A DNA stretch of 64,000 nucleotides from Bacteroidota bacterium (GTDB lineage: Bacteria; Bacteroidota; Bacteroidia; Bacteroidales; JAADJA01): contig JAHLKX010000002.1 in NCBI GenBank assembly GCA_020444515.1, positions 62,001-126,000 of the forward strand. The letters are read 5' to 3'. A model generated the notes under the pieces. The model saw nothing but the letters and a program-made list of their open reading frames with translations. It was not told where the DNA came from and made no database searches. This document shows, one piece after another, positions 837-42,870 of the stretch. The first letter of the stretch is position 1; every line of letters begins with the position of its first letter. The translations under genes were made by a program, and so were the position numbers.

Positions 837-2186
837 CTAGGATCCGATGCGTTTTCGGATGTGTTCCGTTTCTTTTTCAAAGCCCGGTTTTCCAAGGAGC
901 GCGAACATATTCTTTTTATAGGCTTCCACACCGGGTTGGTCAAACGGGTTGACCTCGAGGGTATAACCGCTCAGGGCGCAGGCCATTTCAAAAAAGTAGA
1001 TGAGTTGTCCGAGATAATATTCATTGATGGCCGGCACGTTCAAGTGAATATTCGGAACACCGCCATCGGTATGGGCCAGCATGGTGCCCAGTTCAGCCAT
1101 TTTATTCACTTCATCGATCCGTTTTCCGGCGATATAATTGAGTCCATCGAGGTTTTGTTCTTCCTCAGGGATAACAAGCTTTGTATGGGGCTGATCAACA
1201 GAGAGCACTGTTTCGAAAAGCATTCTTTCACCCTCCTGGATGTACTGGCCCATGGAGTGAAGGTCGGTGGTGAAATTGACACCGGCCGGAAAAATCCCTT
1301 TCCCTTCTTTTCCTTCACTTTCACCATAAAGTTGTTTCCACCATTCGGTGAGGTAAAAGAGGTTGGGCAGGTAATTCACCAGGATCTCCACCTTTTTCCC
1401 TTGCTGATAAAGGGCATTTCTGGCGGCTGCATAAAGGGCCATGGGATTGTCTCCAAACTGAGATGATTGGCGGTTGAGGGCTTCCATTTCTGCGGCGCCC
1501 CTGATCAACTCCCGGATATTAAATCCAGCTACTGCGATGGGTAACAATCCCACGGGTGTGAGCACCGAATAACGTCCTCCCACATCATCGGGAACCACAT
1601 AGGTTTGATAACCTTCATTGGTGGCAAGGGTTTTTAGGGCCCCTTTTGACTGATCGGTAATGGCAATGATCCTGTCAACAGCCTCCTTTTTACCATATTT
1701 TTTTTCGAGGTGATTTTTGAGTATCCTGAAAGCGATCGCCGGCTCGGTGGTGGTTCCTGATTTGGAAATGACGGTCAGGGCATACTCATGGGCATCCAGG
1801 AGCTCCAGTAACTGATTCATATAGTCTTCACCGATGTTTTGGCCGGCATAAAGGATAAACGGGCCTTTATTATTTCTCTTCAGTTCTGCAAAATTGTCTT
1901 GCAAAGCCTCAATTACGGCCCGGGCACCAAGGTAAGAGCCACCGATTCCAATGACCACGAATATTGTTGCCTTTTCCCGCATGCGCGCAGCAGCAGCCTC
2001 AATGTTCTTCAGAAGGGATTCATCTGTTTGCGAGGGGAGGTCGACCCAGCCCAGGAAATCATTGCCCTGGCCGGTTTTATCCAAAACTGCACGATGATTT
2101 TTTTCGAGGGTGTGCTGAAAAGCGCTGACGGTGTTTGAATCAACAAAAGCGTCGATTTTACTGATATCAATTTTTATTGTTTGCAT
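837..2186 (-). CDS. pgi: Glucose-6-phosphate isomerase
   Basis: 449 aa; typical PGI motifs (FVVIGIGGSYLGARA, SKSGTTTEPA, GGRYSVLTPVGLLP). Confidence 0.95.
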   Translation of the reverse strand: MQTIKIDISKIDAFVDSNTVSAFQHTLEKNHRAVLDKTGQGNDFLGWVDLPSQTDESLLKNIEAAAARMREKATIFVVIGIGGSYLGARAVIEALQDNFAELKRNNKGPFILYAGQNIGEDYMNQLLELLDAHEYALTVISKSGTTTEPAIAFRILKNHLEKKYGKKEAVDRIIAITDQSKGALKTLATNEGYQTYVVPDDVGGRYSVLTPVGLLPIAVAGFNIRELIRGAAEMEALNRQSSQFGDNPMALYAAARNALYQQGKKVEILVNYLPNLFYLTEWWKQLYGESEGKEGKGIFPAGVNFTTDLHSMGQYIQEGERMLFETVLSVDQPHTKLVIPEEEQNLDGLNYIAGKRIDEVNKMAELGTMLAHTDGGVPNIHLNVPAINEYYLGQLIYFFEMACALSGYTLEVNPFDQPGVEAYKKNMFALLGKPGFEKETEHIRKRIGS

Positions 2187-2310
2187 ATGGATTGTCTTGA
2201 TTCGTTATGGCTGTCAAAATTAAGGCTTATCCCCAAGAAAAACAATTCAATCACCCGGACGCTTTCTGCTTTTACGGCCATTGATGCATCAATTTCCCTT
2301 CATTCCGTCC

Positions 2311-2340
2311 TTTGCCGCATCCAAACTTTCATTAAATTTG
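2311..2340 (+). promoter_or_regulatory. Candidate Bacteroidota sigma-ABfr promoter upstream of icmF
   Basis: TTTG (2311-2314), 18 nt spacer, TAAATTTG (2333-2340), 34 nt before the ATG at 2375; spacer slightly shorter than the usual 19-21. Confidence 0.4.
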
Positions 2341-2374
2341 CATACCGCTTATTGTACGATAAATATTTGATACC

Positions 2375-5300
2375 ATGCAGAAGACAGACATATACAAACC
2401 GAAAAATCACATCCGTATCGTAACAGCTGCTTCATTGTTTGACGGTCATGATGCCGCCATCAATATCATGCGGCGGATCATTCAGTCCACCGGTGCGGAG
2501 GTGATTCACCTGGGACATAACCGGTCGGTTCAGGAGATCGTGGATTGCGCTCAGCAGGAAGATGCACAGTCCATAGCCATTACCTCCTACCAGGGTGGGC
2601 ACATCGAGTATTTCAAATACATGTACGACCTTTTGAAAGAAAAAGGATGCGGACATATCAAGATATTCGGCGGTGGTGGAGGTGTGATCCTGCCCGAAGA
2701 ACAGAAAGAACTGCATGATTATGGCATTACCCGCATCTATTCACCGGATGATGGTCGCCAGCTGGGTTTGCAGGGGATGATCAACGACCTGATGAAAGCA
2801 TCCGATTTCCCCACAGGTAACCACATGGAATTTCGCGAAAAAGATGTTCGTTCCAGGAATATCAATACCATTGCCCGTTTGATCTCCGCTTGCGAAAACA
2901 ATCCGGAATCGGTCAGAGATTTTATTGATAAGCTGGATAACAAAACCAGAAAGTCGCCTGTCCTTGGTATTACGGGTACCGGTGGCTCGGGAAAATCATC
3001 GCTGGTGGATGAGATCGTACGACGCTACCTGGATAATTTTCCCGATAAAACCATTGCCATCATATCGGTGGATCCTTCCAAACGGAAAACCGGAGGTGCA
3101 TTGCTGGGAGATCGCATTCGTATGAACTCCATCAACAATGAAAGGGTATTCATGCGCTCCCTGGCAACCCGGCAATCCAACCTGGCCATGTCGCGCTATG
3201 TGAAGGATGCTGAGCGCATTGCACAGGCTGCCGGTTTCGATCTGATCATTCTGGAGACCTCCGGGATCGGGCAATCCGATACCGAGATCATCGATCACAG
3301 TGACCTGTCCCTGTATGTCATGACACCCGAATATGGTGCTGCCACACAGCTTGAAAAGATTGATATGCTTGATTTCGCCGATCTGGTTGCCCTCAATAAG
3401 TTTGACAAACGGGGTGCCCTGGATGCTTTACGGGACGTGAAAAAACAATATCAGCGCAACCATCTTTTCTGGGATAAAAGTGTGGATGAAATGCCGGTAT
3501 TTGGTACCATTGCTTCCCAGTTCAATGACCCGGGGGTCAACAAATTATTCAATGCCCTCATTGCGAAGATCAAGGAAAAAACAGGCGTGGAGTTTGTCTC
3601 CAGGATTGAAGAAACAGAAGAAGAGCCCGAAAAGATCTATATCATCCCGCCCAATCGTACCCGCTATTTGTCGGAGATCAGTGAAACAGTCAGGGGTTAT
3701 AACCAATGGTCGGAAGACCAGGCCCGGGTAGCGCAACGCCTCTATGCCATTCGGGAAACCATTCAATCTCTGCAGGAGGCCGAAAATCCGGATAAACGAC
3801 TGATCAGTTCATTGGAGGAGCAGTATCGACACATTGAACTGGATCTGGATGGTCATAACAAAGAGATCCTGGAAAAATGGGATGAAAAGGTGCAATCGTA
3901 TAAAGCAAAGTTTTTTGTGTTTGAAGTGCGTGACCGTGAATTCAAATTGGCCACCCATACGGAATCATTATCGCATTTGCAAATTCCCAAGATCACCCTT
4001 CCCAGATACCAGGGTTGGGGAGATATCTTAAAATGGAACCTGGTGGAAAATGTTCCGGGGGAATTTCCTTATGCCGGTGGTGTTTTCCCGTTTAAACGCG
4101 AAGGTGAGGATCCAACCCGCATGTTTGCCGGTGAAGGCGGACCGGAACGGACCAATAAACGCTTTCATTATGTCTCGCTGGGCATGCCGGCCAAACGCCT
4201 ATCCACGGCATTTGACTCGGTAACGCTCTATGGGGAAGATCCCGACCGTCGGCCCGATATTTACGGAAAGATCGGGAACTCCGGTGTTTCCATTGCCTGC
4301 CTCGATGATGCCAAAAAACTTTATTCCGGATTTAATCTCGTGGATCCGAAAACCTCGGTTTCGATGACCATCAACGGACCGGCTCCCATGCTCGTGGGCT
4401 ATTTTATGAATGCAGCCATCGACCAGCAATGTGAGCTATATATCCATCAGAATGGGCTGGAAAAAGAGGTAAATAAGAAAATCGATGATCTCTATAAAAA
4501 ACGGGGTACCAAACGCCCCGAGTACCAGGGTAAATTACCCGAAGGACATGATGGGCTGGGACTCATGTTATTGGGTGTTACCGGCGATCAGGTATTGCCT
4601 GCGGATGTGTATGGCAACATCAAATCCGATACCCTCAACCGGGTTCGGGGAACGGTTCAGGCCGATATCCTCAAGGAAGACCAGGCCCAAAATACCTGTA
4701 TCTTTTCCACCGATTTCTCACTGAAACTAATGGGGGATATTCAGCAATATTTCATCGACCACAAAGTCCAGAACTTTTATTCGGTGTCCATCTCAGGATA
4801 TCACATTGCGGAGGCGGGTGCCAATCCCATTTCCCAACTGGCCTTTACCCTGGCCAATGGCTTTACCTATGTTGAATATTATCTGTCACGGGGAATGCAC
4901 ATCGATCAGTTTGCGCCCAATCTTTCCTTTTTCTTCTCCAATGGTATCGATCCTGAGTATTCGGTTTTGGGCCGGGTAGCAAGGCTGATCTGGTCCAAAG
5001 CCATGAAGATCAAATATGGCGGGAATGACCGCTCGCAGAAACTGAAATACCATATCCAGACTTCAGGTCGCTCACTCCATGCCCAGGAAATCGACTTCAA
5101 TGATATCCGGACGACTTTACAGGCGCTCTATGCCATATACGATAACTGTAATTCGTTGCATACAAATGCTTATGATGAAGCCATCACCACACCAACCGAG
5201 GATTCAGTGCGGCGGGCCATGGCCATCCAGATGATCATCAATCATGAACTGGGGCTGGCTAAAAATCAAAATCCATTGCAGGGCTCCTTCATCATCGAAG

Positions 5301-30056: not shown

Positions 30057-30896
30057 ATGAACCTTTATAAAATTGAAACCGGAAATTTGAAATTAGACGG
30101 TGGTGCTATGTTTGGCGTTGTGCCAAAAACAATTTGGCAAAAATCTTATCCTGCCGATGAAAATAACCTGTGTAACTGGTCGATGCGCTGCCTTCTGGTG
30201 GTGGATGGCGATCGAAAAATTTTGATTGACAATGGCATTGGTGATAAACAGGATGAAAAATTCCTGAAACATTATCATCTCAATGGTGACGACTCACTTG
30301 ATAAATCCCTTGCCGCTGTTGGTTATTCCCGTGACGACATTACCGATATGGTACTTACCCATCTTCATTTTGATCATTGTGGCGGAAGCATCGTGAAAAC
30401 CGGCGATGATCAATTTGAAACCGCCTTTAAAAATGCTACTTACTGGATCAGCAAAGATCAGTGGGAATGGGCCACCCATCCCAATCGGCGGGAGCGAGCC
30501 TCCTTTCTTAAAGAAAATATTTTACCCATCAAAGAAAGCGGACAATTAAAGCTGGTGGAAAATGAAGGAGCTCTTTTTCCGGGAATCGATGTGAAATTTT
30601 ACAGTGGCCACACCGACGGACAAATGATCCCGTTTATCAAATACAACGGCAAAACCATTGTCTTTACTTCCGATTTACTACCTTCCACTGCGCATGTACC
30701 CATCCCTTATGTGATGGCCTTTGATACGCAGCCATTACTTACTTTGAAGGAGAAAGCGTCTTTCTTTGCAGAAGCCCTTGAAAACGATTATATTATCTTT
30801 TTGGAGCATGATCTCTACCATGAATGCTGCACCCTGGAAAATACGGAGAAAGGACCACGGGTAAAAGCAACATTCACATTAGAAGAAATCCTTTAA
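30057..30896 (+). CDS. MBL-fold metallo-hydrolase
   Basis: VLTHLHFDHCGG, SGHTDGQM, FTSDLLPS. Confidence 0.88.
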   Translation: MNLYKIETGNLKLDGGAMFGVVPKTIWQKSYPADENNLCNWSMRCLLVVDGDRKILIDNGIGDKQDEKFLKHYHLNGDDSLDKSLAAVGYSRDDITDMVLTHLHFDHCGGSIVKTGDDQFETAFKNATYWISKDQWEWATHPNRRERASFLKENILPIKESGQLKLVENEGALFPGIDVKFYSGHTDGQMIPFIKYNGKTIVFTSDLLPSTAHVPIPYVMAFDTQPLLTLKEKASFFAEALENDYIIFLEHDLYHECCTLENTEKGPRVKATFTLEEIL

Positions 30897-32159: not shown

Positions 32160-33767
32160 TTGTACAGAATAGAATCAAAAATTGACGTGCATTCCCGGGA
32201 GTTTAAAAAAAACAGGGAGGCATTTTTAAAAATTTTGGAGCAATACAAAGCCAACCTCGAAAAAGTTAAAGTCAGGGATGACGAGAGTTCAGTGATTCGA
32301 CATAAAAAGCGGGGCAAGCTTTTGGCTCGTGAACGCATCGACTTATTGATCGATCCCAATACTCCTTTTCTGGAACTAAGCCAATTGGCGGCTTTTGGTG
32401 CTCACGGTAATCAATTTCCATCGGCAGGGATCATTACAGGAATCGGCATTGTTCATGGTAAAGAAACCTTGATTGTAGCCAATGATGCAACGGTAAAAGG
32501 TGGTACTTACGTTGAAGAGACCATCAAAAAACATGTCCGTGCCCAGCAAATTGCTATCGAGAATCGCCTGCCATGTGTCTATATGGTCGATTCAGGGGGG
32601 ATTTTCCTGCCCGAGCAAGCCAAAGTATTTGCCGATCGTTTTAATTTCGGGCGTTTTTTTTACAACCAGGCCCAACTATCGGCCATGGGCATACCGCAGA
32701 TCGCCATTGTCATGGGATCGTGCACCGCCGGAGGGGCTTATGTGCCTGCCATGAGCGATGAGACGATCATTGTGAAGAAACAGGGAACCATCTTTATTGG
32801 CGGACCTCCATTGGTCAAAGCGGCGACGGGTGAAGTGGTAACACCCGAAGAGTTGGGTGGTGCTGATGTACACACTTCCATCTCTGGTGTTGCCGACCAC
32901 TATGCTGAAAACGATCAGCATGCCATTCAGATCTGCAGGAATATTTTCCAGACCCTTGAAATGAGTGACAGGCAACCGCTTGACATCTCACCTGCAGAAG
33001 ATCCTTATTATGATCCTGAAGAACTATATGGCCTGGCTCCCATCGATTTCCGGAAACCGATAGATTCCAAAGAGATCATTGCCCGCATGGTAGATGGAAG
33101 CCGGTTTCATGAATTTAAATCACGCTATGCTCCGACGCTGGTTACCGGATTCGCCAATATCATGGGCTACCCGGTTGGGATCATTGCCAACAATGGTGTC
33201 TTGTTTTCAGAATCATCGCTTAAAGGCGCCCATTTTGTGGAACTTTGCCAGGTTAGAAAAATTCCCCTGCTGTTCATGCAAAATATAACCGGGTTTATTG
33301 TTGGTAAGCAATATGAACATGGAGGCATAGCAAAAGATGGCGCCAAGTTTGTCCATGCGGTAGCCAATGCCAATGTTCCAAAGTTCACAGTGGTTTTTGG
33401 AGGTTCATTTGGTGCCGGTAATTATGCCATGGCCGGCAGGGCTTATGATCCACGCCTGTTATTTATGTGGCCCAATGCACGGATCTCCGTGATGGGAGGT
33501 GAACAGGCTTCCGGTGTGCTCATCCAGGTAAAGGAGGAACAACTGGCCAAAGCCGGCAAGGAACTCGATCCCAAAGCAAGGGAAAAGCTGAGGGCCGAGA
33601 TTCTGAAAAAATACGATGAGGAAGGATCACCCTATTATAGTACTTCCCGCCTCTGGGACGACGGGATCATTGATCCGGTGGATACCCGTAAGGTAGTGGC
33701 TATGGGTATTGCTGCTTCACTCAATCAAAAATTTCCTGAAATGAAAAATGGTGTCTTCAGAATGTAA
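32160..33767 (+). CDS. mccB: Methylcrotonyl-CoA carboxylase carboxyltransferase (beta) subunit
   Basis: [71 protein letters not shown] start predicted. Confidence 0.9.
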
Positions 33768-33773
33768 GGATCC

Positions 33774-34562
33774 ATGATGAAAGAATTTCAAACCATAAAA
33801 TTTGAATGTAGTGCATCCATTGGTATTATCTGGCTCAATCGACCAGATATACACAATGCATTCAACGATGTGATGATCGCCGAGCTGACCGATTGTTTCC
33901 TCGAAATTGAAAAAATGAAAGATATCCGTTTGGTGATTTTGCGCGGGAATGGTAAATCATTTTGTGCCGGTGCCGATCTCAATTACATGAAAGGTATTGC
34001 GAAGTTTGGATACAAGGAAAATTATGAAGACGGTAAAAAACTGGCAAGGCTCTTTACAACGGTATACAACTGCTCATGTCCCACACTGGCAGTTGTGCAT
34101 GGCGCTTGTTTTGGTGGAGCCAATGGATTGATAGCTGCGTGTGATATCGTTATCGCTGAAGAAAATACCAAATTTGCCTTCAGTGAAGTGAAATTGGGAA
34201 TAGCTCCAGCCACCATCGGACCCTTTGTTTTAAAAAGGACCGGAGAATTCAAGGGGAAAGAGCTGATGATGACCGGAAGAAGATTTACGGGAAAGGAAGC
34301 TGAAAAGGCGGGTTTGGTAAATCGCATGGTTACTGAAAATGAACTGGAAGATGTTGTGACAGGTTATATCAAAGAGTTCAAATCTGCAGCACCGGGAGCG
34401 GTTAAAGCAACAAAAGAAATGATTGTAAAGGTGATGAATGAAGGCGGGTCCGGAATCACCGAATACACCGCCGATCTGATTGCCGGACTCCGCGCCTCGG
34501 ATGAAGGTCAGGAAGGGATGGCGGCGTTTTTGGAAAAAAGAAAGGCGGATTGGAATCGTTAG
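33774..34562 (+). CDS. liuC: Enoyl-CoA hydratase family, probable methylglutaconyl-CoA hydratase
   Basis: GKSFCAGADLNYMKGIA, VHGACFGGANGLIAACDIVIA; position between mccB and mccA. Confidence 0.85.
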   Translation: MMKEFQTIKFECSASIGIIWLNRPDIHNAFNDVMIAELTDCFLEIEKMKDIRLVILRGNGKSFCAGADLNYMKGIAKFGYKENYEDGKKLARLFTTVYNCSCPTLAVVHGACFGGANGLIAACDIVIAEENTKFAFSEVKLGIAPATIGPFVLKRTGEFKGKELMMTGRRFTGKEAEKAGLVNRMVTENELEDVVTGYIKEFKSAAPGAVKATKEMIVKVMNEGGSGITEYTADLIAGLRASDEGQEGMAAFLEKRKADWNR

Positions 34563-34645: not shown

Positions 34646-35020
34646 ATGGAAAAGTATTTAAAGCTTGAAGATATTTCATCTTACAATATTTCATTTGATC
34701 TCAGTAATTATGTTTGGGATATTGTAATAAAATGGGACAGTTTTGCAAAATATTCCATAGGAAAACAATTTGTTGATGCAGCCGATTCCATATCTGCAAA
34801 TATTGCTGAAGGCTTTGGAAGATATTTTAAAAAGGATAAAATTAACTTTTACAGATATGGTAAAGGTTCTGCAGTTGAAAGTGTCGACTGGAATAATAAA
34901 GCAATTAAAAGAGGATTGATCTCGCATGAACAATTTACATACATTGATAAAATACTTAATGAACTACCACTGGAAATCAACAACCTGATAAAGTATACAA
35001 ACGATAAACTCAAATATTAA
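34646..35020 (+). CDS. Four-helix-bundle protein (23S rRNA intervening sequence protein-like, TIGR02436 type)
   Basis: 124 aa; FVDAADSISANIAEGFGRYFKKDKINFYRYGKGSAVE signature. Confidence 0.85.
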   Translation: MEKYLKLEDISSYNISFDLSNYVWDIVIKWDSFAKYSIGKQFVDAADSISANIAEGFGRYFKKDKINFYRYGKGSAVESVDWNNKAIKRGLISHEQFTYIDKILNELPLEINNLIKYTNDKLKY

Positions 35021-35113: not shown

Positions 35114-37120
35114 ATGAAGCTTTTCAAAAAAATACTCATCGCAAACAGAGGCGAAATTGCCGTTAGGATTATTTATTCGGCCCATGATCTTGGAATAGAA
35201 ACAGTAGCCATTTATTCATCTGCTGATGAGGAGGGTCTCCATGTGGAAATGGCTGACGAAGCCTATAGTCTCGGTGGTAGTATCGAACTAAGTGAAACCT
35301 ATCTCAATATTGACAAAATTATCAATATTGCCAAAAAATCAGGTGCTGAAGCCATTCACCCTGGTTATGGTTTCCTGGCCGAGAACCCGGCATTTGTTGC
35401 AGCCTGTGAAAAAGCCGGAATTATTTTCATCGGGCCCAATACCAAATCCATCCAGTTGATGGGGAATAAGATCGAGTCAAGGGCTTTTGTGAAAAAGATC
35501 GGCATTCCAATGACCGAAGGCATTACTGGTGACGTGAAGACATTGCAAAAAAAAGCCGGAACGATTCCTTTGCCGATTTTGGTGAAAGCTGCTGCAGGAG
35601 GCGGTGGAAAAGGGATGCGGATTGTAAAAGATTTGAAAGATTTACCGGATATCCTTGAAAGTACCAGTCGCGAAGCCAAGTCCTATTTTGGAGATGCATC
35701 CATTTTCATTGAAAAGTATGTGGTGGAACCCCGTCACATTGAGATACAGGTGATTGGCGATAATCACGGAAATGCTGTGCATCTTTACGAGCGGGAATGT
35801 TCCATCCAGCGCCGTTACCAGAAGATCATCGAGGAGTCTCCATCACCGACATTAACACAGGAGGTTCGTGAAAAAATGGGGGCCGCTGCCGTGAAAATTG
35901 CCAAAGAGATCGGATACAACAATGCCGGAACGGTGGAATTCCTGGTAGATAAAGATTTGAACTTTTATTTCCTCGAGATGAATACCCGTGTGCAAGTGGA
36001 ACATCCGGTAACTGAAATGGTTACAGGCATTGACATTGTTCGGGAACAAATCCTTATTGCAGCCGGCAATCCCCTTGGTTTTGAACAGGAAGAGGTGACT
36101 CAGTTTGGACATGCCATTGAATGCCGGATCTATGCTGAAGACCCTGCCAATAATTTCCTACCATCACCGGGTGATATGTCGCTGTACCTTGAACCCGAAG
36201 ATGATGAGATCCGCATTGATACCGGAATTGAGGAAGCAACAACCATTCATAGTTTTTATGATCCTATGATCAGCAAAATGATCATTTGGGGCGAGGATCG
36301 AGAAATGGCCCGGGAAAAAATGATCCATGCCTTGCGGGAATATACGGTCCATGGGATCAAAACAAATATTGCATTTTTGACACAGGTATTGCAGAACAGA
36401 GCCTATATCGACAATAAGATCTCCACCAAATACTGCGATGAACACACCGATGATCTGATCAATCTGATTGAAAAAGAAAAAGCAACGATTGATCCCAATC
36501 TGCCAGCTTTGGCTTATCTCGTCTATGGTTTTCACGAAGACCTGATTTACCCGGATGAAGAGGTCTATAATGTTTGGAAGGAGATCGGTTACTGGCGCGA
36601 CCTGATGGATATCAAAATGAATGTTGATGACAAGATCCTTTCTGTCAGAATTTTAAAAGAGGGACACGGAATCATCCGGTTTAATATTGCGGGTAAAACC
36701 TATGGATGTGAGTTACGATCCATGCAGGAGAATATTTTAGAACTCATTGTTGACGGCCATCTGATGATATTTTATATCTCACGGGATAAATTGGGTCGTG
36801 GTTTTGTGAGCCTGAACGGACATATCTTCACGGTGATGCGTTTTGATGTGCTTCCCTCGGAAGATTTTTTCGGGGCACTTGAAATTGGTGGAAAAGATGG
36901 TGCTGAAATCGTATCACCCATGCCGGGAAAGGTGATTAAGATCAATGTCAAAAACGGAGTTAAGGTGAAGAAAGGCGATATCCTGATGGTAGTGGAAGCC
37001 ATGAAGATGGAGAACAACATCCTCAGCCCGAAAGACGGCAAAGTGGAAAAGATAAACGTAAAAACCGGGGATATGGTGGATGGTAGCAGGGAGTTGGTAT
37101 CACTTGTAAGTGAAAATTAA
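35114..37120 (+). CDS. mccA: Biotin carboxylase/BCCP subunit of methylcrotonyl-CoA carboxylase
   Basis: KILIANRGEIAVRII, KAAAGGGGKGMRIV, EMNTRVQVEHPVTEMVTGID, C-terminal biotinyl site VVEAMKMENNI. Confidence 0.9.
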   Translation: MKLFKKILIANRGEIAVRIIYSAHDLGIETVAIYSSADEEGLHVEMADEAYSLGGSIELSETYLNIDKIINIAKKSGAEAIHPGYGFLAENPAFVAACEKAGIIFIGPNTKSIQLMGNKIESRAFVKKIGIPMTEGITGDVKTLQKKAGTIPLPILVKAAAGGGGKGMRIVKDLKDLPDILESTSREAKSYFGDASIFIEKYVVEPRHIEIQVIGDNHGNAVHLYERECSIQRRYQKIIEESPSPTLTQEVREKMGAAAVKIAKEIGYNNAGTVEFLVDKDLNFYFLEMNTRVQVEHPVTEMVTGIDIVREQILIAAGNPLGFEQEEVTQFGHAIECRIYAEDPANNFLPSPGDMSLYLEPEDDEIRIDTGIEEATTIHSFYDPMISKMIIWGEDREMAREKMIHALREYTVHGIKTNIAFLTQVLQNRAYIDNKISTKYCDEHTDDLINLIEKEKATIDPNLPALAYLVYGFHEDLIYPDEEVYNVWKEIGYWRDLMDIKMNVDDKILSVRILKEGHGIIRFNIAGKTYGCELRSMQENILELIVDGHLMIFYISRDKLGRGFVSLNGHIFTVMRFDVLPSEDFFGALEIGGKDGAEIVSPMPGKVIKINVKNGVKVKKGDILMVVEAMKMENNILSPKDGKVEKINVKTGDMVDGSRELVSLVSEN

Positions 37121-37620
37121 GATTTTACAATCGGAACCTCTTCACCAACTGTCTCTTCCAGGAACATTCTCAAAGCTTCCATATGATCCTTGGCCTTGTA
37201 TTGACCGTATTGAGCGGCACCATAAGCAAAGGCCATTCCTAAGATTCCCAGCGGGATACTCCATAAAAATGGGGCATCCATCCCCAGAAAAAACTGGATG
37301 ATACCGTATGCACTTCCCAAAAAAGCGGAAGTGAGGATACCGGTATAAATGAACATGAACATGGTCCAGATTTTAGGCTTTGGTCCAATCACACCATAAA
37401 TGATGGTTTCACCATCTTCTTCCCTTGCCCATACATGCAGTTCCGGTGACCAGTAATGCTGCATTGAATCAGGAAAACGGATGAAAGCATGCTCCTGTAC
37501 GACCTGACCTTCAAGTACATCATTGTTTTCCTGGATTTGCTGACGGAGCTTATTCAGAATGTCGCTGGAGGATTCTTTAGATACGATCCGGCACCGGGGC
37601 CTGAGTCGGGTAGTAGCCAT
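37117..37620 (-). CDS. Hypothetical membrane protein
   Basis: 167 aa with two TM-like segments; stop overlaps the mccA stop by 4 nt on the opposite strand. Confidence 0.7.
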   Translation of the reverse strand: MATTRLRPRCRIVSKESSSDILNKLRQQIQENNDVLEGQVVQEHAFIRFPDSMQHYWSPELHVWAREEDGETIIYGVIGPKPKIWTMFMFIYTGILTSAFLGSAYGIIQFFLGMDAPFLWSIPLGILGMAFAYGAAQYGQYKAKDHMEALRMFLEETVGEEVPIVKS

Positions 37621-37837: not shown

Positions 37838-38986
37838 ATGGATTTTGATTTAACCGAAGAGCAACGCATGATCCGCGACACCGTCAGGGATTTTGCCGAA
37901 CGAGAAATTAAACCAGTAGCTCATGACCTGGATGAAAAAGGGGAGTTTTCCTATGACCTCACACGAAAAATGGGTGAGTTGGGGCTGTTTGGAATGTATT
38001 TGCCTGAAAAATACGGGGGACAGGGTCTTGACACCCTTTCTTACATTATTGCTGTCGAAGAAATTGCACGCATTGACGGATCCCAGGCCGCTACCCTGGC
38101 TGCCCATAATTCACTGGGAATTGGCCCGTTATATGAATATGGCAACGAAGAACAAAAAATGAAGTACCTGCCAAAGCTTTGCACCGGTGAAGCGCTTTGG
38201 GGTTTTGGTTTAACTGAGCCCAATGCCGGATCCGATTCAAGAGGTACCAAAACAACCGCTGTGCTCGAAAACGGGGAATGGGTGATCAATGGATCAAAGA
38301 TATTTATTACCAATGGTTCCTGTGATATTTCTATTGGTTCAACGGTGCAGGCTGTGACAAAAACTCACACCGATGGCAAAAAGGAATTTACAACCATTAT
38401 TGTTGAACGCGATACACCCGGTTTCAAGCAGGTGACCATGCATGGCAAAATGATGTGGCGTGCATCAGATACGGCTGAACTTTATTTCGATGACTGCCGC
38501 GTTCCGGAGGGGAATCTGCTTGGTAAAGTGGGTGAAGGTTCCCACATTATGTTACATACGCTTGATAGCGGACGCCTTTCCATTGCTGCTATGGGACTCG
38601 GATGTGCTCAGGGGGCCTTTGAACTTGCCCTCCAATACGCTAATGAAAGAAAACAATTTGGTAAACCCATTTCAAAATTCCAGATCAATGCTTTTAAACT
38701 GGCAGATATGGCGACCAAGATCGAACTGGCCCGCAATCTTCTTTATAAGGCTTGCTGGCTCAAAGATGCCGGGAAACCTTATGGTAAAGAAGCCGCTATG
38801 TCGAAATTATATTGTTCTGAAATAGCAAAAGAAGTAGCGGATGAAGCAGTTCAGATCCATGGCGGTTACGGCCTGATGAAGGATTATGATGTTGAACGTT
38901 TTTATCGTGATCAGCGTTTATTGCAGATAGGAGAGGGAACTTCGGAAATCCAGCGATTGGTCATCTCAAGATACATTGGCTGCTAA
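37838..38986 (+). CDS. Acyl-CoA dehydrogenase of the leucine cluster
   Basis: MDFDLTEEQRMIRDTVRDFAE, LTEPNAGSDSRG, IHGGYGLMKDYDVERFYRD, IGEGTSEIQRLVISR. Confidence 0.92.
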   Translation: MDFDLTEEQRMIRDTVRDFAEREIKPVAHDLDEKGEFSYDLTRKMGELGLFGMYLPEKYGGQGLDTLSYIIAVEEIARIDGSQAATLAAHNSLGIGPLYEYGNEEQKMKYLPKLCTGEALWGFGLTEPNAGSDSRGTKTTAVLENGEWVINGSKIFITNGSCDISIGSTVQAVTKTHTDGKKEFTTIIVERDTPGFKQVTMHGKMMWRASDTAELYFDDCRVPEGNLLGKVGEGSHIMLHTLDSGRLSIAAMGLGCAQGAFELALQYANERKQFGKPISKFQINAFKLADMATKIELARNLLYKACWLKDAGKPYGKEAAMSKLYCSEIAKEVADEAVQIHGGYGLMKDYDVERFYRDQRLLQIGEGTSEIQRLVISRYIGC

Positions 38987-39840
38987 TGGAAAAAATCAAA
39001 ATAGTTGAATCCCCGCGCGATGCCATGCAAGGCCTTACCCGTTTTATCCCCACGGAGGATAAGGTGCGATACATCAATGCCTTATTGCGGGTTGGATTTG
39101 ATGTGATTGATTTTGGAAGTTTCGTATCGCCCAAAGCCATTCCACAGCTTGCGGATACGAATGAAGTAGTGAAAAAACTTGACCTGTCCTCGACCAATAC
39201 CAGGTTGCTGGCCATCATTGCCAATAGCCGCGGTGGAGCCGATGCAGCAGCGTTTGACGAGATCACTTACCTGGGTTTTCCTTTTTCGATTTCTCCTACA
39301 TTTCTGAAACGGAATATCAATTCGACAGTTGAGAAATCAGTTCAAACCGTGGATGAACTAATGGAGATCTGTGTTAAAAAGAACAAAGAGTTGGTGGTCT
39401 ACATTTCAATGGCTTTTGGCAATCCTTATGGTGATGAATGGAATCCCGAGCTGGTTGCTGACTGGGTGCAACGACTTTATAACATGGGTGTTCGGACCAT
39501 TCCTTTATCGGATACGGTAGGAATTTCCAGCAAGAAAAACATTAACACCTTGTTTTCAATGCTCATCCCTGCATTTCCCGATATTGAATTTGGATTTCAC
39601 CTGCATACCACCATACGTCACTGGTATAAAAAAGTTAATGCTGCATTTGTGAATGGTTGCAGATCATACGATACCGTGATCAATGGTTTGGGGGGTTGTC
39701 CGATGGCCGAAAACCGGATGGTGGGAAATTTGAGAACAAGCAACCTTCTGGAATATCTCGAAATCAATAACTTCCCTGTTTCGATCGATGATGATGCTTT
39801 TAACAAAGCTTATGAACTTGCATTGGAAATTTTTCCATAA
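38986..39840 (+). CDS. liuE: Hydroxymethylglutaryl-CoA lyase
   Basis: ESPRDAMQGL, PLSDTVGISS, FGFHLHTT, NGLGGCPMAENRMVGN; 1 nt TAATG overlap with the upstream gene. Confidence 0.87.
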   Translation: MEKIKIVESPRDAMQGLTRFIPTEDKVRYINALLRVGFDVIDFGSFVSPKAIPQLADTNEVVKKLDLSSTNTRLLAIIANSRGGADAAAFDEITYLGFPFSISPTFLKRNINSTVEKSVQTVDELMEICVKKNKELVVYISMAFGNPYGDEWNPELVADWVQRLYNMGVRTIPLSDTVGISSKKNINTLFSMLIPAFPDIEFGFHLHTTIRHWYKKVNAAFVNGCRSYDTVINGLGGCPMAENRMVGNLRTSNLLEYLEINNFPVSIDDDAFNKAYELALEIFP

Positions 39841-39853
39841 ATAATACTTTTGA

Positions 39854-41794
39854 ATGACGGATACGATTCTTTGGAGACCAACGGAAACTTATAAAACCAG
39901 CTCGGCAATGTACCGGTTTTTAAATCACATTGCTGATAAATACCATTTGCGTGATAATCAATACCAAACTGTTCACCGTTGGAGTGTTGAGAACATTGAA
40001 AATTTCTGGGCTGAAATCTGGGATTATACAAACATCATTGCGTCTGAACCTTACCGGGAAGTTGTGGATAATGTAAATAAAATGCCCGGTGCCCGGTGGT
40101 TTGGTGGTTCAAGATTGAATTTTGCAGAAAACCTGCTTCGCCGGAGAGATGATCATACAGCCATTATTTTCAGAGGAGAAGATTCTGTAAAAAGAAAAAT
40201 TTCCTATGCTGAACTCTATAACGAGGTGAGACGTGTAGCGGCAGGACTCAAAAAGTTGGGCGTAAAAAAGGATGATCGCGTTGCGGCTTTTATGCCCAAT
40301 ATGCCCGAAACCGTCATCGGAATGTTGGCAACGGCTTCCATTGGAGCAATCTGGTCATCCACCTCACCCGATTTCGGCACAAAAGGGGTTCTGGATCGAT
40401 TCTCACAAATCAATCCCAAAGTGATCTTTGCAGCCGATGGTTATTTTTATAAAGGTAAAGCCTTTGACTCGCAGGAAAAACTTAAAGAAATTCTAAAAGG
40501 ACTTCCGTCCCTTGAGGCAGTGGTGATGACCGATTATACCGGTCATTTGAATGTGGATTCAATCCCCAATGCCATGCCCTGGGAATCGCTGGCAGTGCCG
40601 ATCGATGAAGAACTGACTTTCGAGCAACTCCCCTTTGATCATCCGCTGTATATCATGTATTCGAGTGGGACAACCGGATTACCAAAGAGCATTGTTCACT
40701 CAGCCGGAGGAACCTTGATCCAACATTTAAAAGAGCTGATCCTTCATTCCAATATCAACACCAGTCAAACTATATTCTATTACACTACCTGCGGTTGGAT
40801 GATGTGGAACTGGTTTGTGAGTGCCCTGGCAACTGGAGCCACTTTGGTATTGTACGACGGCAACCCATTTTACCCCGGTCCGGATACCCTGCTAAAAATG
40901 GCGGATGAGTTGGGAATAACATTTTTCGGGACCAGTGCCAAGTATATTGCTTCACTGGAAAGTGAAGGGGTAATCCCAAAAGAAATTTCAGACTTTCCCG
41001 AATTGAAGGTCATTGCATCCACCGGTTCACCGCTGATCGAGGCCAGTTATCATTATGTCTACAAACATTGGAAAAAGGATGTTCAGCTATCCTCCATTGC
41101 AGGTGGGACAGATATCGTTTCCTGTTTTATGCTTGGGAATCCCACGTTGCCCGTTCATTTGGGTGAGATACAATGTAAGGGTTTGGGTATGGCGGTAGAT
41201 TGTTTTGATGAAGAGGGCCTTTCACTGGTAAATGAGCAGGGTGAGCTGGTCTGTAAAAAACCGTTTCCTTCCATGCCTTTATTTTTCCTGAATGATAAAG
41301 GGGGAAAAAGATATCATGATGCTTATTTTGATGTTTATCCCGGAATTTGGAGGCATGGAGATAATGTTGTCATTTCAGGACATGGCGGCATCACCATGTA
41401 CGGTCGATCCGATGCAACATTGAATCCGCAGGGGGTTCGCATTGGCACTGCTGAAATTTATAGTGTTGTTGAAACCATGGAAGAAATTGAAGATTCGGTA
41501 GTGGTGGGGAAAAAGCAGGACGGCGATGAGATCGTGGTGCTTTTTGTAATTTTAAATGCGGGTTTTCAATTGGATGAATCACTGATAAAAAAGATCAAAA
41601 CAAAAATCCGGAATAATTGCAGCCCCAGGCATGTACCCTCTATTATTAAAGAAGTCCCTGAGATACCCTATACCATCAATGGGAAAAAAGTAGAGATTGC
41701 AGTCAAGCAAATCATCCATGGTAAAAAGGTTAAAAACAGGGATGCGTTAGCCAATCCTGAAAGTCTTGAGTTTTATTACGATGTATTAAATTGA
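39854..41794 (+). CDS. aacS: Acetoacetyl-CoA synthetase (acetoacetate-CoA ligase)
   Basis: MYSSGTTGLPKSIVHSAGG, GARWFGGSRLNFAENLLRR, YTTCGWMMWNWFVSAL; 646 aa. Confidence 0.92.
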   Translation: MTDTILWRPTETYKTSSAMYRFLNHIADKYHLRDNQYQTVHRWSVENIENFWAEIWDYTNIIASEPYREVVDNVNKMPGARWFGGSRLNFAENLLRRRDDHTAIIFRGEDSVKRKISYAELYNEVRRVAAGLKKLGVKKDDRVAAFMPNMPETVIGMLATASIGAIWSSTSPDFGTKGVLDRFSQINPKVIFAADGYFYKGKAFDSQEKLKEILKGLPSLEAVVMTDYTGHLNVDSIPNAMPWESLAVPIDEELTFEQLPFDHPLYIMYSSGTTGLPKSIVHSAGGTLIQHLKELILHSNINTSQTIFYYTTCGWMMWNWFVSALATGATLVLYDGNPFYPGPDTLLKMADELGITFFGTSAKYIASLESEGVIPKEISDFPELKVIASTGSPLIEASYHYVYKHWKKDVQLSSIAGGTDIVSCFMLGNPTLPVHLGEIQCKGLGMAVDCFDEEGLSLVNEQGELVCKKPFPSMPLFFLNDKGGKRYHDAYFDVYPGIWRHGDNVVISGHGGITMYGRSDATLNPQGVRIGTAEIYSVVETMEEIEDSVVVGKKQDGDEIVVLFVILNAGFQLDESLIKKIKTKIRNNCSPRHVPSIIKEVPEIPYTINGKKVEIAVKQIIHGKKVKNRDALANPESLEFYYDVLN

Positions 41795-41816: not shown

Positions 41817-42821
41817 ATGAACTATCCTAAAAAAGTAGTTATTGGCGACATTACCGTTCGCGACGGTTTTCAGCACGAAGAAAAATTTATCCCGACTGAA
41901 GCCAAATTATGGTTATCAGAACAATTGATCCTGGCGGGATTCAAACACATTGAAATTACCAATTTTGGCAATCCCAAAGGAATGCCCCAGTTTAAAGATG
42001 CAGATGACCTTTTTAAAAGGATCAGGAACAGTAAAAAATTAAAAGGTAAACTGGATGATGTAATGCTCACAGCAATCACCATTCGGGAGCGTGCAGTTGA
42101 AAGGGCCATTCAGGCAAAAAAAGACGGATACGGGCCCGATCGCATTCTTTTAATGGTTTCTACCAGTGAATCACACCAGAAGAAAAATTCCGGTCTTACC
42201 CTTGATGAATACTGGAAAATGAGTGAAGAGTGGGTGAAAAAAGCCCGTGATGCCGGATTAAAAGTAAACGGCACGGTTAGTACCATTTGGGGCTGTCCTA
42301 TCGAAGGGCCCACTGATCCTAAGAAAGCCATTGAATTTACCAAGCGCTGGTTTGATATTGGTGCAACTGATGTGGAACATGCTGATCACGATGGCTCCGC
42401 TTCACCCGACCGGGTTTATGATTATTTCTCTATGCTACTCGACAACGTGGACAATCCGGAAAAACAAATTGCGCACTTCCATACAACCCGTGGTTGGGGT
42501 CTGGCCAATGTTCTGGCAGCGCTTCAGGCAGGGATGACGAATTATGAGTCGACCATGGGTGGTCTGGGCGGACAGCCGGCCAATTTTGTGGATGGTGTTC
42601 CCGTTCCCGGAACCGGTGAGTATTATTACAAAGATCCTAATGATGTAGGCCTTGTCTCAACGGAAGACATGGTAGTAATGATGGATGAAATGGGCATTGA
42701 TACCGGCGTAGATGTTGATAGAGTCTTGGAAATTGGCCAGATGGTTGAACGGATTGTGGGAAGAAAATTGCGTTCGGAATCAATACGCAATGGAAGGATA
42801 CCCAAACATTTAAAAGGCTAA
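41817..42821 (+). CDS. HMG-CoA lyase-like DRE-TIM metallolyase family protein (divergent)
   Basis: GDITVRDGFQHEEKFIPTEAK, AHFHTTRGWGLANVLAALQAG, MGGLGGQPANF. Confidence 0.8.
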   Translation: MNYPKKVVIGDITVRDGFQHEEKFIPTEAKLWLSEQLILAGFKHIEITNFGNPKGMPQFKDADDLFKRIRNSKKLKGKLDDVMLTAITIRERAVERAIQAKKDGYGPDRILLMVSTSESHQKKNSGLTLDEYWKMSEEWVKKARDAGLKVNGTVSTIWGCPIEGPTDPKKAIEFTKRWFDIGATDVEHADHDGSASPDRVYDYFSMLLDNVDNPEKQIAHFHTTRGWGLANVLAALQAGMTNYESTMGGLGGQPANFVDGVPVPGTGEYYYKDPNDVGLVSTEDMVVMMDEMGIDTGVDVDRVLEIGQMVERIVGRKLRSESIRNGRIPKHLKG

Positions 42822-42843
42822 AATAAATACACTCAATTTAAAG

Positions 42844-42870
42844 GCCCGGAACTTTTTTCCGGGCTTTTTT
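42844..42870 (+). terminator. Intrinsic terminator ending the leucine cluster
   Basis: GCCCGGAA-ctttt-TTCCGGGC followed by TTTTTT. Confidence 0.88.

Follow-up and report, generated by a model that had tools for sequence, protein, structure and literature searches.

We analysed two genes of the HMGL family in a leucine catabolic operon of an uncultured Bacteroidota bacterium of the order Bacteroidales. The window is the whole 64,000-nucleotide stretch of DNA that was examined, and its relevant features are collected in Table 1. The upstream gene encodes an HMG-CoA lyase with the G-loop cysteine (HMGL-C), and the downstream gene encodes a protein with glutamine in its place (HMGL-Q). HMGL-Q is the last gene of an operon whose products cover the whole leucine pathway, down to acetyl-CoA, with substrates assigned from the combination of genes. 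It starts 22 bp past the stop codon of the acetoacetate-CoA ligase, is followed by a predicted terminator, and apparently shares a transcript with the leucine catabolic genes. A four-helix protein of the 23S_rRNA_IVP family (PF05635) is encoded within the operon, between the hydratase and the biotin carboxylase. Between the biotin carboxylase and the acyl-CoA dehydrogenase, on the opposite strand, lies a 167-aa ORF with no Pfam match, judged by eye to be probably a membrane protein. Upstream of the operon is a gene for a metallo-beta-lactamase-fold protein (PF00753), whose cluster has members in 13 HMGL-Q loci among the best 80 of 507.

Table 1. Features of the window discussed in the text.
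Feature	Coordinates	Strand	Basis
Metallo-beta-lactamase-fold protein (PF00753)	30057..30896		Family match
Carboxyl transferase (methylcrotonyl-CoA carboxylase beta)	32160..33767	+	Family match; substrate presumed
Enoyl-CoA hydratase (methylglutaconyl-CoA hydratase candidate)	33774..34562	+	Family match; substrate presumed
23S_rRNA_IVP protein (PF05635)	34646..35020		Family match
Biotin carboxylase and biotin carrier (methylcrotonyl-CoA carboxylase alpha)	35114..37120	+	Family match; substrate presumed
167-aa ORF	37117..37620	-	
Acyl-CoA dehydrogenase (isovaleryl-CoA dehydrogenase by position)	37838..38986	+	Family match; substrate presumed from neighbours
HMGL-C, Bacteroidota-type Cys HMG-CoA lyase, GLGGCP	38986..39840	+	Sequence and family search
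Acetoacetate-CoA ligase (acetoacetyl-CoA synthetase)	39854..41794	+	940.7 bits, cut-off 639
HMGL-Q (PF00682; Gln253 where human HMGCL has Cys266)	41817..42821	+	ATG start, 334 aa
His191 codon, invariant (Thr205 of human HMGCL)	42387..42389	+	Column comparison and sequence
Gln253 codon (CAG) within GGLGGQPANF	42573..42575	+	Sequence
Family-specific insertion 3' of the G-loop, about residues 257-275, FVDGVPVPGTGEYYYKDPN	42585..42641	+	Alignments; low confidence in AlphaFold model
Predicted intrinsic terminator, 12 bp stem then T run	42840..42868	+	Sequence

The initial annotation had described the HMGL-Q reading frame by a Gln in the G-loop together with HFHTT and RDG motifs, and all of these are present in the translation (VRDGFQ, HFHTT, and GGLGGQPANF). 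The GLGGCP that it reported for the first paralog also agrees with the sequence, and the metal-site motif of that paralog is RDAMQG rather than RDG. HMGL-C and HMGL-Q share a Pfam family and an operon, but they are 24% identical, and HMGL-C keeps the Asn of the metal site, is shorter, evolves faster, and belongs to a separate clade. HMGL-Q matches PF00682 with 124.7 bits, and its top PDB sequence matches are HMG-CoA lyases. Against the NCBIfam model for HMG-CoA lyase (PRK05692) it scores 205.9 bits, below the cut-off of 246, as does HMGL-C with 193.1. In a fold comparison of the AlphaFold model (pLDDT 88.9, pTM 0.88) with the PDB, the 14 best matches are all HMG-CoA lyases (TM 0.77-0.83, by query length), and homocitrate and isopropylmalate synthases rank behind them. 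HMGL-Q has the domain and fold of the TIM-barrel HMG-CoA lyases (HMGCL, EC 4.1.3.4; PDB 2CW6, 3MP5, 1YDO, and 6NDS), to which it is about 25-31% identical in structural alignments. It also carries the marks of a DRE-TIM metallolyase, with R15 and D16 on strand 1 and the HxH pair H220 and H222 on strand 7 of the barrel, all four invariant. The polypeptide stops soon after the barrel.

We used HMMER alignments with solved HMG-CoA lyases to assign HMGL-Q residues to positions of human HMGCL. The critical catalytic residues of HMG-CoA lyase are Arg41, Glu72, Tyr167, and Cys266, and its metal ligands are Asp42, Asn275, His233, and His235 (PMC6941031). HMGL-Q keeps Arg41, Asp42, Glu72, His233, and His235 (as Arg15, Asp16, Glu46, His220, and His222), and with them three of the four metal ligands. 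Gln253 aligns with Cys266 and Leu279 with Asn275, with 15-17 extra residues between the two. Tyr167 corresponds to Thr153, which is little informative by itself because the A. baumannii lyase 6NDS has Thr there too. Column comparison showed that Gln253, Leu279, His191 (Thr205), His188 (Leu202), and Arg90 (Asn109) are invariant in HMGL-Q, as are Pro262, Gly265, Thr266, Gly267, Tyr269, and Tyr270 of the insertion. The replacements Cys266 to Gln, Asn275 to Leu, Thr205 to His, and Leu202 to His each occur in 100% of the family and in none of ten canonical sequences, all or most of which have the classical residue at the HMGL-Q-specific columns. Several active-site positions and a loop have changed together, that is, by coordinated replacement. 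The initial annotation was right about the exchange of Cys for Gln but understated the extent of the change, which also takes in Asn275, Thr205, Tyr167, and the insertion. Metal binding could survive the loss of Asn275, because in the crystal structure of plant MAMS Asp, two His, water, and substrate hold the metal, with no Asn (PMC11532901). We considered Asn256 as a substitute metal ligand for Asn275, by analogy with isopropylmalate synthase; the case was weakened by the same structure and by the poor modelling of the inserted loop (pLDDT about 55).

The catalytic cysteine of HMG-CoA lyase is replaced by Gln in all 15 genus- or order-level homologues of HMGL-Q and in 81 of 81 rows from the best 80 of 507 loci (GTDB species). 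Since it is present in every homologue examined, Gln253 is not a sequencing quirk. NCBI labels nearly all of these best 80 loci as Bacteroidota MAGs, with a few Chlorobiota or Ignavibacteriota labels, and identity among homologues is 67-92%. About a quarter of the genomes in an order-level sample (96 of 393) have an HMGL-Q match, and all of these matches lie beyond 1e-185 save genes truncated at contig ends, so that the family has no blurred edge. A search of viral contigs returned no relative. Compared with close relatives, HMGL-Q has a dN/dS of 0.02-0.04, where synonymous sites are nearly saturated, and it evolves more slowly than HMGL-C (about 80% identity versus mostly 41-59%). Given these values and the retained Arg, Asp, Glu, His, and His, HMGL-Q is probably a functioning metalloenzyme and not a decaying copy. 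A pseudoenzyme would combine metal-site or catalytic loss with relaxed constraint; here Asp-His-His and Arg are kept and constraint is strong, and the low dN/dS and invariant metal residues led us to reject decay. Our literature search of open-licence papers found no account of a Cys-free HMG-CoA lyase family. The fold and general chemistry of HMGL-Q are known, whereas its set of active-site residues and its pairing with a Cys lyase are not described in that literature; HMGL-Q is apparently a widespread, strongly conserved, and previously uncharacterised enzyme subfamily.

We built trees of 42 and 39 proteins, one with an outgroup and one without, a check that the initial annotation had named. 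HMGL-Q forms a single clade with full support (100/100) and a long stem in both, separate from the Cys paralog as well as from verified HMG-CoA lyases. A group of verified lyases carrying Gln would have spoken against the initial annotation, and none turned up. A single clade of HMGL-Q and the Bacteroidota Cys lyases was rejected (AU p 0.0034), and this rules out HMGL-Q as a recent duplicate of its Cys paralog. Together with the tree placement, it indicates that two separate PF00682 branches were brought together in one operon. The nearest branch to HMGL-Q holds plasmid-borne, Cys-free proteins with a G[VI]GGHPA loop, with support of 97/92 with the outgroup and 94/91 without, which is not decisive. 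These proteobacterial proteins (L124, L125, L153, and L158) resemble HMGL-Q in having no Cys in the G-loop, where they have His, and Ala after the Pro. A Rhodococcus protein with GGVGGEPA (L123), also close to HMGL-Q in the trees, carries a Glu form of the Cys-free loop. Unlike HMGL-Q, the plasmid Cys-free proteins keep Asn275 and Thr205 and are without most of the insertion. The annotated ones adjoin genes for CoA-transferase, enoyl-CoA hydratase, and AMP-ligase, and not biotin carboxylase genes. We note that several of these five proteins are annotated as hydroxymethylglutaryl-CoA lyase though His or Glu replaces the Cys, a possible misannotation.

Gene neighbourhoods were compared across the best 80 of the 507 HMGL-Q loci. 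Leucine-pathway genes lie within 10 kb in 61 of the 79 loci with a called HMGL-Q ORF; where both flanks extend for at least 3 kb, they do so in 32 of 38. At the loci without leucine genes, which include the other 6 of these 38, the neighbours look like unrelated housekeeping genes, and no other pathway emerged. Upstream of HMGL-Q, the most frequent neighbour is a divergent carboxylase/hydratase gene (22 of 75), followed by SCOT subunit B (17 of 75) and acetoacetate-CoA ligase (8 of 75). A large B12-dependent mutase-like gene (IcmF-like) and a butyrate-kinase-like gene, both named by eye, adjoin HMGL-Q on the opposite strand at L026, L030, L036, and L041. At six leucine clusters (L041, L056, L080, L083, L086, and L100), a protein of about 727 aa stands in the place of the biotin carboxylase (methylcrotonyl-CoA carboxylase alpha). 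The protein at L100 combines HMGL-like, PYC_OADA, and biotin domains and resembles transcarboxylase 5S or oxaloacetate decarboxylase alpha, and methylcrotonyl-CoA might conceivably be carboxylated by transcarboxylation at these loci.

Within the order of the window's genome, HMGL-Q is strongly linked to leucine catabolism, and it and the Cys lyase go together. Among the 393 genomes, 87 have both lyases, 9 have HMGL-Q alone, 8 have the Cys lyase alone, and 289 have neither (Fisher p 1.5e-66, a value that overstates independence as the genomes are related). A general replacement of the Cys lyase by HMGL-Q was rejected, since 41 of 50 and 87 of 96 HMGL-Q carriers have both. A phylum-wide sample included 71 genomes of this class that carry the Cys lyase. 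Of these, only the window's genome has HMGL-Q as well, and the other 70, with the Cys lyase alone, indicate that the leucine pathway can run without HMGL-Q. We observed two departures from the usual gene content and sequence: five genomes (G026, G028, G030, G032, and G036) have a close methylcrotonyl-CoA carboxylase beta but neither type of HMG-CoA lyase was found in them, and in the HMGL-C genes of L056, L058, L065, and L073 Arg-Glu replaces Arg-Asp at the first metal ligand.

The best reading is that HMGL-Q is a metal-dependent 3-hydroxyacyl-CoA carbon-carbon lyase adapted to HMG-CoA or to a compound close to it, and it probably performs a different or differently specific cleavage from that of the ordinary lyase. 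A lyase for a 3-hydroxyacyl-CoA close to HMG-CoA is the explanation we favour over its rivals, with somewhat less than even confidence. Counting against it are the class genomes with the Cys lyase alone, the 6 well-covered loci that lack leucine neighbours, genus g202, in which HMGL-Q occurs with no close methylcrotonyl-CoA carboxylase beta, the poorly modelled loop, and the HMGL-Q-only genomes described below. The favoured protein would be an active divalent-metal-dependent enzyme within the DRE-TIM superfamily, on the branch of the HMG-CoA lyases. By homology, a metal bound by Asp16, His220, and His222, along with substrate and water, would act with Arg15 to hold the 3-hydroxyacyl-CoA, and retro-aldol/Claisen cleavage would yield an acyl-CoA and a 3-oxo acid. 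Another group would take over the proton transfers for which human HMGCL uses Cys266, and invariant His191 seems the best and most economical candidate for it. From residue spacing, His191 would stand at the oxo-acid-binding Thr position of the DRE-TIM synthases. In MAMS, Thr257 touches the oxo acid (PMC11532901); lying 31 residues before His288, it corresponds by spacing to the Thr of the DT motif, and the isopropylmalate synthase of L106 has the same spacing. His188 may help His191, and Gln253 would only orient substrate or water. The substrate is most likely a close relative of (S)-HMG-CoA, such as a longer or otherwise different 3-methyl-3-hydroxyglutaryl-type thioester, and not (S)-HMG-CoA itself, since genomes with HMGL-Q usually have the ordinary Cys lyase too. 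A narrower proposal, which we hold more tentatively, is that HMGL-Q supplies an undescribed step in the catabolism of leucine or related branched acyl-CoAs in uncultured, mostly sediment Bacteroidota, in which His191/Gln253 would stand in for the cysteine and the 3-hydroxyacyl-CoA cleaved would differ from (S)-HMG-CoA. The function of HMGL-Q would reveal either HMG-CoA lyase chemistry without cysteine or a missing step of branched-chain amino-acid breakdown in uncultured sediment bacteria. Automatic annotation would probably label it an HMG-CoA lyase, though a residue thought essential to that chemistry is gone; with His-, Glu-, and Gln-type loops all occurring among PF00682 proteins, this family alone is an unsafe basis for assigning lyase function.

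The strongest rival, which we regard as unlikely but worth serious consideration, is that HMGL-Q is a second, Cys-independent lyase for (S)-HMG-CoA, the cysteine having become dispensable once the surrounding site was rebuilt. HMGL-Q closes the leucine operon, and at L051, L077, L078, and L103 it holds the place of the lyase, beside carboxylase, hydratase, dehydrogenase, and CoA-transferase genes and with no Cys lyase nearby. Seven HMGL-Q-only genomes have a close methylcrotonyl-CoA carboxylase beta (72-80% identity), and in G430, G532, G557, and G608 the search found, alongside it, no PF00682 protein other than HMGL-Q. For G430, G532, and G557 (99%, 97%, and 94% complete, respectively) this combination favours ordinary HMG-CoA cleavage. 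G430 and G532, two members of a single genus, give the same result. Most of these assemblies are in many pieces, with as many as about 1000 contigs, so that the absence of the Cys lyase from them is suggestive. Against the rival, both genes are retained in 87 of the 104 genomes that have either, an unusual pattern for isoenzymes, and four active-site residues and a loop are altered together. The suggestion in the initial annotation of a different reaction or acyl-CoA is partly supported: it fits the same joint replacement, the separate clade, and the retention of both lyases by most carriers in the order, and it is tempered by the HMGL-Q-only genomes with carboxylase, which leave room for a plain HMG-CoA lyase.

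The remaining explanations fare less well. HMGL-Q could act on (R)-HMG-CoA and so clear or use the second stereoisomer that an unselective hydratase would make. This would explain the two lyases side by side, and an (R)-specific leucine route is known in Mycobacterium tuberculosis. That route runs through an unrelated CitE-like lyase (PMC6689899) without sequence similarity to TIM-barrel HMG-CoA lyases, however, and the HMGL-Q sequence gives no readout of stereochemistry, and we consider this rival improbable. A condensation of acyl-CoA and oxo acid, as in isopropylmalate and citramalate synthases, is very improbable. These enzymes and the methylthioalkylmalate and homocitrate synthases share with HMGL-Q the DRE-TIM barrel, the Asp-His-His metal site, and a similar spacing from G-loop to Asn; GLGGQPAN aligns without gaps with GLGERAGN, profile alignments with isopropylmalate synthases mostly stop exactly at Asn256, and the Asn275 of lyases is lost. 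HMGL-Q is nevertheless much nearer to the lyases in sequence and fold, has GG and not ER in its loop (GGLGGQPAN, against GxGERxG), and is without the C-terminal region that gives MAMS its catalytic His. Just as improbable is that HMGL-Q has no activity of its own and serves the Cys lyase as a partner or regulator: the catalytic Cys and one metal ligand are lost, and the Cys lyase is directly downstream at 23 of 72 loci among the best 80 of 507, but Arg, Asp, His, and His are invariant, HMGL-Q evolves more slowly than the Cys lyase, and some genomes have it without that lyase.

We also observed one tandem duplication of the HMGL-Q gene, at L089 (positions 2024-4080, a Salinivirgaceae MAG), where no Cys lyase was found. 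Both the Gln and Asn256 are retained in the second copy, which shares 67% identity with the window protein.
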